Positions 2,872 to 28,367 of a stretch of 28,452 nt of DNA are shown here, in pieces. The DNA is taken from positions 1 to 28,452 of the IMG/VR virus record IMGVR_UViG_3300035698_001120, one strand, 5' to 3'. A program made the position numbers and the translations under genes. The stretch comes from a virus. Within the stretch, counting starts at the first letter, position 1, and the number at the start of each line of letters is the position of its first letter. The notes beneath the pieces were generated by a model, which ran no database searches, was not told the origin of the DNA, and saw nothing but the letters and a program-made list of their open reading frames with translations.

Positions 2872-3116
2872 TGACCAATGGCCCGATTCATTTTTTTAAT
2901 TGCAGTTCGTCTACCACATGAAAACTTTCGTTTCCCTGCTTTAATTTCAGCTTCAGACCATTCAACAGCTTCTGATCCTGCATCAAGATCTTCTGTCAAA
3001 ACTTTCGGTGTGTGTTCTTCTGTATGTTCTTCTGCATGTTCTTCGACTGCACGTTGTTCTTCAACTACTTCACCCAAAACTTCAACTTTAGATGTTTTTT
3101 TATTTTTCTTTGCCAT
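2868..3116 (-). CDS. Hypothetical acidic protein with EEH repeats
   Basis: Eighty-two residues, not recognised. The N-terminus is lysine-rich (MAKKNKKTSK). The middle (residues 18-36) is a low-complexity acidic stretch with repeated E-E-H triplets (EEHAEEHTEEHT). The C-terminus is basic (KAGKRKFSCGRRTAIKKMNR). This charge-segregated, probably disordered design resembles small phage DNA- or scaffold-associated proteins, but nothing specific can be claimed. A GG-containing ribosome-binding site (TAGGTAATATC) precedes the ATG. It is coupled to the GroES-like gene by a 4-base overlap. Confidence 0.7.
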   Translation of the reverse strand: MAKKNKKTSKVEVLGEVVEEQRAVEEHAEEHTEEHTPKVLTEDLDAGSEAVEWSEAEIKAGKRKFSCGRRTAIKKMNRAIGQ

Positions 3117-3134
3117 GATATTACCTACGTATAA

Positions 3135-3527
3135 TTAACGGTATTGATTACCGAGTTGAAAATGTGGTGAATCTAAAAAGTCGCGCCACAAACCACCAGC
3201 TTCAATTTGAACACCAGCTTCAATTGCAGCAGTAAAGAAAGCTTGTATTACTTTCCTAAAGTATTTATGCTCCCACGTAACACTACCGTCAACAATAACA
3301 TAGATGTCAACTGCATGACTAAAACCGTCATCTTGTGGTAAATGCATACTATTCAGAGTAGTTGATTTACCATCAGCAACATATTGTGTTTGAGTTTCGA
3401 TTGTGCGTACACCTTCAGTTACACCAAAATCATATGGAGATAACTGTATAGCACGTTTAACGACAGCAATCAAATCTGGATGAACGTCAGTTAACCGACG
3501 TAATGAACGTTTTCCTAATGCGTACAT
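3135..3527 (-). CDS. Endolysin, M15 L-alanyl-D-glutamate peptidase type
   Basis: Cleaves the peptide stem of DAP-type peptidoglycan for lysis. The 130 residues align by eye with T5 endolysin: an N-terminal GKRSLRRLTDVHPDLIAVVKR, then AIQLSPYDFGVTEGVRT, then the Zn-binding region SMH (H62) to HAVD (D74), and the last ligand in SPHFQ (H122). There is no signal peptide, so a holin would be needed; none is seen in this window. The upstream region is unusual. The ATG directly follows the T-run of a terminator hairpin, so no Shine-Dalgarno sequence is present. An exact late-promoter box TATAAATA lies in the 5' arm of that hairpin, giving a plausible late-only expression switch. Confidence 0.9.
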   Translation of the reverse strand: MYALGKRSLRRLTDVHPDLIAVVKRAIQLSPYDFGVTEGVRTIETQTQYVADGKSTTLNSMHLPQDDGFSHAVDIYVIVDGSVTWEHKYFRKVIQAFFTAAIEAGVQIEAGGLWRDFLDSPHFQLGNQYR

Positions 3528-22287: not shown

Positions 22288-22524
22288 TTAATGGAAGGTT
22301 GGAACAGTAACACGCTCAACATACTCATTATCGTCGGCTACAGTGATCATATCTTTACAGAAATTAACATCACCTAATAAGACAGAAACGCCATACAGAA
22401 GTTTTTTATATTGTTCAGGTGAGTCACTATCGTACAATAAACTGAATGAATTATTGTCATTATGAATAGCTAGTATGGTACTTTCACGAAGTTTTTTCAG
22501 TTCGTCTTCATTAAATGTTGCCAT
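22288..22524 (-). CDS. Hypothetical protein, 78 residues
   Basis: Unrecognised; starts MATFNEDELKKLRESTILAIHND and contains a beta-prone NNSFSLLYDSDSPEQYKKLLYG segment. I choose the ATG at 22524. An in-frame TTG at 22563 would lie inside the terminator hairpin that ends the tmRNA transcript, so it is unlikely. No Shine-Dalgarno sequence is clear before the ATG. Without readthrough of the tmRNA terminator its promoter is unknown. Confidence 0.65.
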   Translation of the reverse strand: MATFNEDELKKLRESTILAIHNDNNSFSLLYDSDSPEQYKKLLYGVSVLLGDVNFCKDMITVADDNEYVERVTVPTFH

Positions 22525-22542
22525 AGATGTACCATTAGAAAG

Positions 22543-22572
22543 AAAAAGTTGTTTGGGTAACAAGGAACAACT
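22543..22572 (-). terminator. Intrinsic terminator of the tmRNA unit
   Basis: A 7-bp minus-strand stem AGTTGTT/AACAACT (22566-22572 and 22547-22553) with a 12-base loop is followed by five T (22543-22547). It directly follows the tag-coding half of the tmRNA. Confidence 0.75.
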
Positions 22573-22599
22573 CGACCGAAGTCTGAAATCCCAGTTGGT

Positions 22600-22644
22600 T
22601 TACGCAGCTAGTGCGAATTCACCAAAGGTAAAGTTATCGTTTGC
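22600..22644 (-). other. tmRNA tag reading frame
   Basis: Fourteen codons from GCA (22642-22644) to TAA (22600-22602) encode ANDNFTFGEFALAA. The ALAA end is the protease-recognised type, and the ANDNF...EFA.AA pattern matches the alphaproteobacterial tag type (Caulobacter AANDNFAEEFAVAA, from memory). Its stop codon lies inside helix 5, as in other tmRNAs. Confidence 0.92.
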
Positions 22645-22727
22645 CTTTATTTCGTTTTATCTTTTTTCGTGAATAACCACGCATTGTCAACATATCGTCG
22701 CATCAATATCGATTCCAAGGCATCCCC

Positions 22728-22849
22728 ATCAAAAATTGTCCACCCGACTCGCTAATGTCAGTAGATTTGTGTGTCGTGCACAGGTCACGTGACCTGTACT
22801 TGACTTCCTATCAGTCTTACCTGATCCCATGTTAGCTGTGGACAACTTT
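22728..22849 (-). other. Intervening segment of the permuted tmRNA precursor
   Basis: This 122-base segment links CCA of the acceptor half to the 5' G of the tag half. Its ends pair (TTGTCCAC with GTGGACAA), an inner GCTAA/TTAGC pair continues the stem, and the perfect 18-base palindrome ACAGGTCACGTGACCTGT (22780-22797) could cap it. It would be removed by tRNA-type processing. Confidence 0.8.
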
Positions 22850-22998
22850 TGGTGGAGATGGCGGGAGTCGAACCCGCGTCTATCAACCTATTGTTTGCTT
22901 CATACAATGATAAAGCGATAGAGTAATGTCGTGTACGTTTCGCTAGGTCGATGTCAAACCAACTTCGGAAATTTCGCCTCTCTATCATGACTTACTAT

Positions 22999-23334
22999 TT
23001 AGACATATTGCAAATAGATTTCTTCAATATGCCTTGATTCATCATTGACATAAATTTCTGCCAATTCTTGACGTATTTGAATTCTTAATATCAAGTCCTT
23101 CGCTGATGCAATAATACCATATAAGGCATTGGATCGTTCACCGTTTCGTAACTTTCTAGTTCTTACATACTGCGCAATTTGCAATTTGTAACCGTTAGTA
23201 GTTTCGATGATATGCTCTGCTAAAGATCTTGAAAACGTAATACGATGTAATGTATTTTTGTCTTCATCGATAATACAATATACGTCTTTACTGGATTTAC
23301 ATGAACAAGCTTTTTTAGTTTTCTATTTCTTCAT
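22999..23334 (-). CDS. Conserved phage protein with in-frame UAG at codon 4
   Basis: The ATG at 23334 has a strong GAGG ribosome-binding site nine bases upstream, but codon 4 is TAG (23323-23325): MKK, stop, then KTKKACSCKSSKDVYCIIDEDKN. After that the frame stays open for 107 more codons to a TAA. The rest looks like a genuine protein, with two related halves: YCIIDEDKNTLHRITFSRSLAEHI and ALYGIIASAKDLILRIQIRQELAEIY, a duplicated pattern I recall from phage hypothetical proteins. No in-frame ATG follows until the end, so simple reinitiation is unlikely. A tRNA with CUA anticodon is encoded 42 bases upstream in the same transcript, which suggests suppression. Alternatives: a recent nonsense mutation of AAG, or a sequencing error. 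Confidence 0.72.
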
Positions 23335-23376
23335 TTTAATAATCCTCTGTTAGGTTATGTGTTTTCTGTTTAAAAT

Positions 23377-23445
23377 TGGTGGATCACCTGAGAATCGAAC
23401 TCAGAACGTGAAGTTTTAGAGGCTTCGGTTGGGTCTTCGTGATCC
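23377..23445 (-). tRNA. Tiny tRNA-like gene with CUA anticodon, no D-arm
   Basis: A 69-base minus-strand gene. Acceptor GGATCAC/GTGATCC is a perfect 7-bp stem, T-arm CTGAG-TTCGATT-CTCAG is perfect, and discriminator A plus CCA are encoded. The anticodon arm is GAAGC-CTCTAAA-ACTTC (four pairs plus a C-A at the loop end), U33 and A37 in place, giving anticodon CUA, which reads the amber codon UAG. Only 12 bases (GAAGACCCAACC) lie between acceptor and anticodon stems, too few for a normal D-arm, and no GG is there to contact the T-loop. A consensus promoter starts just upstream. It may be a functional minimal suppressor tRNA or a degenerate tRNA; the perfect acceptor and T stems favour function. 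Confidence 0.68.
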
Positions 23446-23461
23446 AATTAATGTAGGATTT

Positions 23462-23490
23462 AATATACACCAAAAAAGTATTTATGTCAA
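23462..23490 (-). promoter_or_regulatory. Promoter of the amber-tRNA / tmRNA unit
   Basis: Minus strand TTGACA (23485-23490), 17-base spacer, TATATT (23462-23467). The predicted start is about 10 bases before the tRNA-like gene at 23445. It overlaps the last codon of the SLOG gene. Confidence 0.8.
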
Positions 23491-28289: not shown

Positions 28290-28367
28290 TGGTGGGTCAG
28301 ACTGGATTCGAACCAGTGATCACCTGATTATAAGCAAGCTGCTTTAGGCCAACTAAGCTACAGACCC
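28290..28367 (-). tRNA. tRNA-Ile(TAT) with imperfect anticodon stem
   Basis: Acceptor GGGTCTG/CTGACCC (one T-T mismatch), D-stem GCTT/AAGC, T-arm ACTGG-TTCGAAT-CCAGT perfect, A73 and CCA encoded. The anticodon loop CTTATAA gives TAT, reading the AUA codon, frequent in AT-rich phages. The anticodon stem GCTTG/TCAGG is poor: G27-G43 and T30-C40 mismatches and a G-T at 31-39. The strand TCAGG would fit a CCTGA partner, suggesting decay of the 5' side or a sequencing problem. Likely tRNA-Ile, possibly degenerate. Confidence 0.78.

Follow-up and report, generated by a model that had tools for sequence, protein, structure and literature searches.

In the gene prfB, which encodes release factor 2 (RF2), an early in-frame UGA controls expression, which thereby depends on termination; the gene uses a +1 frameshift and senses its own product. 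In the decoding of selenocysteine and pyrrolysine, certain genes have a stop codon that is read by a dedicated transfer RNA (tRNA). In phages using genetic code 15, a phage-encoded tRNA with the anticodon CUA is believed to decode UAG within phage genes, and a role in late-gene timing has been proposed (PMC9523058, PMC11210395, PMC10879173). Moreover, one report describes a synthetic feed-forward loop in E. coli, in which expression of a gene carrying a nonsense codon required the production of a co-regulated suppressor tRNA (PMC7969014). Here, we describe a gene interrupted by an early in-frame UAG (amber) codon, hereafter the amber gene, and its neighboring CUA tRNA-like gene, both found in IMG/VR record IMGVR_UViG_3300035698_001120, a viral fragment of 28,452 nucleotides (nt) that was analyzed as a whole (the window) and that also encodes UvsX, DnaB, ribonucleotide reductase and NAMPT-like genes.

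We consider it quite likely that this UAG is a built-in off switch and that the phage CUA tRNA gates synthesis of the full protein. The proposal is based on comparison: the early stop is conserved and the codons behind it are under coding selection, a CUA tRNA accompanies the gene, both genes are absent together, and the genome as a whole is not recoded. As in prfB, an in-frame stop near the start would gate expression and make it termination-dependent; unlike prfB, a triplet amber codon would be read, and by a dedicated tRNA. Unlike selenocysteine and pyrrolysine decoding, no special residue is implied, the UAG lying in a disordered tail and shifting in position, and neither a dedicated synthetase nor a signal element was identified. 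Code-15 phages carry many UAG-containing genes, whereas here one gene is concerned and UAG is still an ordinary stop. The coherent feed-forward logic would be the same as that of the synthetic suppressor-tRNA loop (PMC7969014); however, that loop was engineered, whereas the phage pair is natural, recurs in many unrelated large phages, and usually has the tRNA adjacent. If true, this would be a natural gene switch worked by a tRNA, of which the literature found has so far described just an engineered circuit, and the "suppressor" tRNAs of standard-code phages would gain a purpose. The isolated phages that carry the gene make the idea directly testable.

The locus in the window comprises the following elements:

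23462..23490, minus strand: sigma-70-like promoter TTGACA-17-TATATT, with 11 of 12 consensus bases, directly 5′ of the tRNA; a consensus match only
23377..23446, minus strand: CUA-anticodon tRNA-like gene with encoded CCA and without D-arm, a putative UAG suppressor
23344..23347, minus strand: GAGG ribosome-binding site, 9 nt ahead of the ATG
22999..23334, minus strand: putative amber-gated gene of 111 codons with the UAG counted (ATG 23334-23332; TAA 23001-22999)
23323..23325, minus strand: in-frame UAG, codon 4, next base A, recurring in homologues
23005..23286, minus strand: folded domain in the predicted structure, residues 17-110, two beta-beta-alpha-beta repeats

A first-pass annotation made from the letters of the window alone had pointed out the GAGG site, the ATG, the UAG at codon 4, the 107 open codons behind it, and a CUA anticodon gene upstream. 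All of these were confirmed on the minus strand, the CCA end of the tRNA-like gene lying at 23377, 42 nt from the ATG. The two related halves that it had perceived in the protein appeared in the predicted structure as two beta-beta-alpha-beta units, with a mean predicted local distance difference test score (pLDDT) of 86.

Searches with the read-through protein (tblastn) detected homologues of ~37-40% identity in isolated phages of Alishewanella, Synechococcus, Klebsiella, Pseudomonas, and Myxococcus, to which further queries added T4-like Acinetobacter phages and IMG/VR contigs; an IMG/VR pattern scan from the single protein gave zero matches, and profile subsets were required. The early stop was kept in relatives down to ~25-45% identity, including uncultured phages. 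Alignment of homologues, which the first-pass annotation had suggested as a check on the UAG, thus found it conserved: among 28 distinct sequences read, 24 presented UAG and one UAA. Its position varied between codons 3 and 7, and once it was found at codon 17, the UAG-bearing 5′ ends being MKRLK*, MGSDGS*, MS*, MKE*/MNE*/MKV*, MKH*/MNK*, MT*, MQ*, MTNS*, and MNCNCKPTIGYGLCDP* (the codon 17 case), where the asterisk stands for UAG. Since the early stop recurs in distant homologues, chance is excluded, and the copies from IMG/VR and from isolates make it improbable that the UAG of the window (23323-23325) is a sequencing error. Two further matches, L040 (the only one in genome_contigs) and Nostoc phage YongM (L140), were false.

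In every annotated UAG-bearing record examined, public annotation truncated or missed the amber gene. The annotated records place the start of the coding sequence at an internal codon, which implies reinitiation after a leader peptide or minigene, and 5′ ends such as MKH*, MS*, and MKK* do look like minigenes. However, the residues lying behind the UAG but ahead of the first potential internal start codon were conserved, with ratios of nonsynonymous to synonymous differences per site (pN/pS) of 0.06 in the Pseudomonas-like group (pS 0.70), 0.12 in the Acinetobacter group (pS 0.64), and 0.05 in the Klebsiella group, the last from just 12 changes in total; at pS 0.64-0.70, synonymous sites were near saturation in the first two groups. 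The TAG was invariant inside all three groups. Moreover, L029 had 93 codons past the UAG without ATG, GTG, or TTG, and the internal start varied among members and would remove part of the first repeat. We therefore regard reinitiation as very improbable. A nonsense codon thus stands ahead of the functional domain, the codons behind it are constrained as coding sequence, and this purifying selection indicates that, as judged by comparison, the early stop is read through. The same constraint, with the invariant TAG, excludes a pseudogene.

The base context of the early stop was also distinctive. The following base was A in 23 and G in 2 of 25 cases, and never U or C, whereas real UAG stops in the same genomes were followed by T (67), A (46), G (43), and C (35). 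These 25 cases are non-independent, and U or C was found in no lineage. In one study, readthrough is reportedly lowered by U at this position, +4 (PMC5289835).

In the predicted structure, pLDDT was mostly >90 from residue 17 and <50 at residues 1-13, codon 4 included. Nearly all members presented two cysteines of variable spacing 3′ of the UAG, the exception being L020, in which they precede it. The disordered tail and the wandering position of the UAG indicate that this codon serves as a gate rather than as the site of a particular residue. The insertion of a required, pyrrolysine-like residue could be suggested by the "Pyl" label that ARAGORN and annotators give to these tRNAs owing to their CUA anticodon. 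However, the UAG shifts (codons 3-7, 17) inside the disordered tail, L017 and L209 are conserved without it, and CUA tRNAs compared across lineages mostly share only 60-78% identity, so that this explanation has very little chance of being right. No pylS was noticed among the proteins examined, although no search aimed at it was made.

A further line of evidence for the gate is the association of the gene with the tRNA. A CUA tRNA was found on the same strand, 14 nt-1.9 kb upstream, in the Acinetobacter, Pseudomonas-like, Synechococcus, and Alishewanella phages, in L019 and L020, and in the window, while in Klebsiella phages it overlapped the 3′ end of the amber gene; one of these two arrangements held in nearly all members. 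Such closeness could largely reflect the place of the gene in tRNA clusters, and joint absence is therefore the stronger test. In six related phages lacking the gene (FKP3, FBKp34, KP13-16, VLCpiM5a, Acj61, and 133), as established by profile search of whole genomes, ARAGORN found a CUA tRNA in none of the six, which carried 14-25 tRNAs. Klebsiella phage FKP3 matched phi1_175008 at ~93% over the aligned flanks, and both gene and tRNA were missing there. Thus, the matching tRNA was encoded with the gene and absent without it, with L018, L017, and L209 as exceptions. The conserved stop and this joint absence support the idea, raised in the first-pass annotation, that a suppressor tRNA is encoded in cis with the gene that depends on it. 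We infer from the sequences that the full protein would be made only when the suppressor is present, as was also claimed there, and the pairing is broken in some members. A literature search limited to open-licence papers retrieved no report of this gene-tRNA pair, which is weak evidence of absence.

The presence of a CUA tRNA, which about half of the predicted code-15 phages also carry (PMC11210395), could instead mean that amber is reassigned genome-wide and that the gene is one of many with an in-frame UAG. However, UAG was still a normal stop and was used as in tRNA-less relatives, terminating 10.8% of open reading frames (ORFs) in phi1_175008 vs. 10.7% in FKP3, and 5.1% in KARL-1 vs. 4.7% in Acj61, the second of each pair having no CUA tRNA. 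Of 15 genomes, 13 had about 3-12% of their ORFs ended by UAG, and the remaining two had more. A scan for ORFs with an early stop, which needed a Shine-Dalgarno-like motif and a codon-usage score, was non-exhaustive and missed the known gene in several genomes; it recovered the amber gene in KARL-1, AciJM313, ZZ01, Astolliot, and G004. Its remaining matches mostly resembled ordinary genes with a downstream start, and in most genomes scanned no second convincing early-UAG gene was found. A phage-encoded CUA tRNA is therefore present in these genomes, but the many genes with a conserved in-frame UAG expected of code 15 are not, whereas the recoded-looking contigs G027 and G011 showed several. L195 and L262 come from contigs that contain several in-frame-UAG genes and are probably recoded. 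Backup stops after UAG-ended genes were in excess in phi1_175008 and Slickus01 (13/18 each) and inconsistent elsewhere, and they were not used. Because UAG is an equally common stop with or without a CUA tRNA, and because the tRNA is absent together with the gene, the comparison points to a single-gene, tRNA-gated amber switch and not to genome-wide recoding, to which we assign only a minimal probability.

By default, release factor 1 (RF1) would terminate translation of the amber gene after 2-6 residues. Once transcribed, processed, and charged, the phage CUA tRNA would compete with RF1 at the UAG, where the following A or G would favor readthrough, and the full protein would be produced. Tied to the usual side-by-side placement of tRNA and gene, which in the window would be under the one predicted promoter, this would constitute an AND gate or coherent feed-forward loop, in which the protein requires both the mRNA and a functional phage tRNA. 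In this way, the protein would be delayed and scaled with the phage tRNA program. Both the charging of the tRNA with its decoding of UAG and the timing role of the switch are presumed.

The main rival of the tRNA gate is a termination sensor, in which the early stop mainly reports RF1 activity, much as the in-frame UGA of prfB reports RF2, the protein feeds back on termination, and the tRNA sets the threshold only. The two explanations overlap, since RF1 and the CUA tRNA would compete for the UAG and the outcome would report both. Several observations weigh against the tRNA gate, and some of them fit the sensor. First, L018 retained the UAG at codon 3 in a 180-kb contig without any tRNA gene (Rfam) or CUA tRNA (ARAGORN), which would be accounted for by suppression in the host or by a role in sensing termination. 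Second, the early stop of L026 (4983-5318) was UAA, at codon 4 (MES then UAA), and a UUA tRNA was not found in its 34-kb fragment. Third, in Myxococcus phage Mx1 (L010 about 2920-3270), a one-base offset and a UAG (CTG TAG C) separated the ATG from the conserved frame, either as a programmed frameshift or as a sequencing error. The sensor is also favored by neighbors linked to termination or rescue: a permuted transfer-messenger RNA (tmRNA) in the window and ZZ01, an RF-1-domain gene in Acinetobacter phages, and the peptidyl-tRNA hydrolase PTH2 in Mx1. However, it leaves unexplained both the recurrent adjacent CUA tRNA and the joint absence in FKP3 and others, and no RF-like domain was recognized in the amber-gene protein. 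We judge the sensor unlikely, although deserving of more credit than the other alternatives weighed here.

Other members also depart from the tRNA gate. The CUA tRNA of L029 was ~24 kb from the amber gene, and L017 (MSCSGSCK...) and L209 (MAIQCSIKGC...) had no UAG even though their genomes carry CUA tRNAs, the UAG having been lost or never present. When 19 IMG/VR contigs were selected for carrying a CUA tRNA, the amber gene was present in only one (L209, the copy without UAG), which implies that CUA tRNAs serve other clients too. The tRNAs themselves add further difficulties. In the window, the tRNA-like gene presented an acceptor GGATCAC/GTGATCC, CTA in the anticodon loop, and a T-arm CTGAG-TTCGATT-CTCAG, with only 12 nt from the acceptor to the anticodon stem. 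Its fold comprised a 7-8 bp acceptor, a CUA anticodon hairpin, and a 5 bp T-arm, so that it had acceptor, anticodon, and T arms only and did not form a four-arm cloverleaf; the energy of -18 kcal/mol (z -2.3) was equalled by 6 of 200 shuffles. Neither ARAGORN nor the Rfam tRNA model called it, because the D-arm is absent, and that it can be charged is our assumption. The tRNA of Alishewanella phage Slickus01 (L002 about 2830-2903) was likewise D-arm-less, both genes standing directly 5′ of the amber gene, and the CUA tRNA of L019 (3767-3928), ~14 nt ahead of the amber gene, had a ~95-nt insertion at the junction of the anticodon arm and T-arm.

Early UAG codons beside CUA tRNAs were not restricted to this gene. 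A second, unrelated family with an early UAG beside a CUA tRNA included an isolated Rhizobium phage:

L335 1501-1844
L223 5698-6270
L244 4093-4680

The L223 and L244 products begin MSQQ*IEYACKDVVFHFNKKHLED... and MT*ITELLANDLIFHFNKKHLED..., and the unannotated member in Rhizobium phage RHph_I1_18 begins MSEFM*NESCREVIFHFNKAHLAD... (MSEFM-UAG-NESCREV...), with a CUA tRNA 12 nt past its stop. Relatives of this family in Phosso and Atu_ph07 had neither the UAG nor a nearby CUA tRNA. A PTH2-like gene in L261 (5006-5543; ML-UAG-IDHVY...), whose codon 3 is UAG and which has a CUA tRNA 58 nt downstream, may be a third case. In these contigs, UAG otherwise serves as a stop (4-9%). We see an even chance that a CUA tRNA with an early UAG is a portable module on unrelated genes, a general regulatory device of standard-code phages; if true, it would account for many of their orphan "Pyl" and "Sup" tRNAs.

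Concerning the protein itself, one motif-based scan found no cellular homologue, comparison of the predicted fold with PDB gave no convincing match, and BFVD structure comparison matched two phage proteins of unknown function, while the only match in Pfam and PHROGs searches was a short PHROG of unknown function. The tRNA-cluster setting and the tmRNA, PTH2, and RF-1-domain neighbors in some genomes suggest a role of the product in tRNA metabolism or translation. In Lazarusvirus, an RF-1-domain protein (L024 2790-3026) adjoins the amber gene and has SGARRW in the usual GGQ region; from this sequence, it may be catalytically dead. In the window, the downstream neighbor was:

22600..22909, minus strand: permuted tmRNA (Rfam RF04321), directly 3′ of the amber gene

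This element, which is probably on the same transcript as the amber gene, scored 109 bits vs. the Rfam gathering score of 47, and ARAGORN called it as tmRNA* at 22509-22942, with the tag ANDNFTFGEFALAA. Permuted tmRNA genes were observed in four phages, namely the window, the L017 and L018 contigs, and Synechococcus phage ZZ01, adjoining the amber gene in the window and ZZ01. Finally, another tRNA of the window (28290-28367, minus strand) presented an enlarged anticodon loop, in which ARAGORN reads the four-base anticodon tata.
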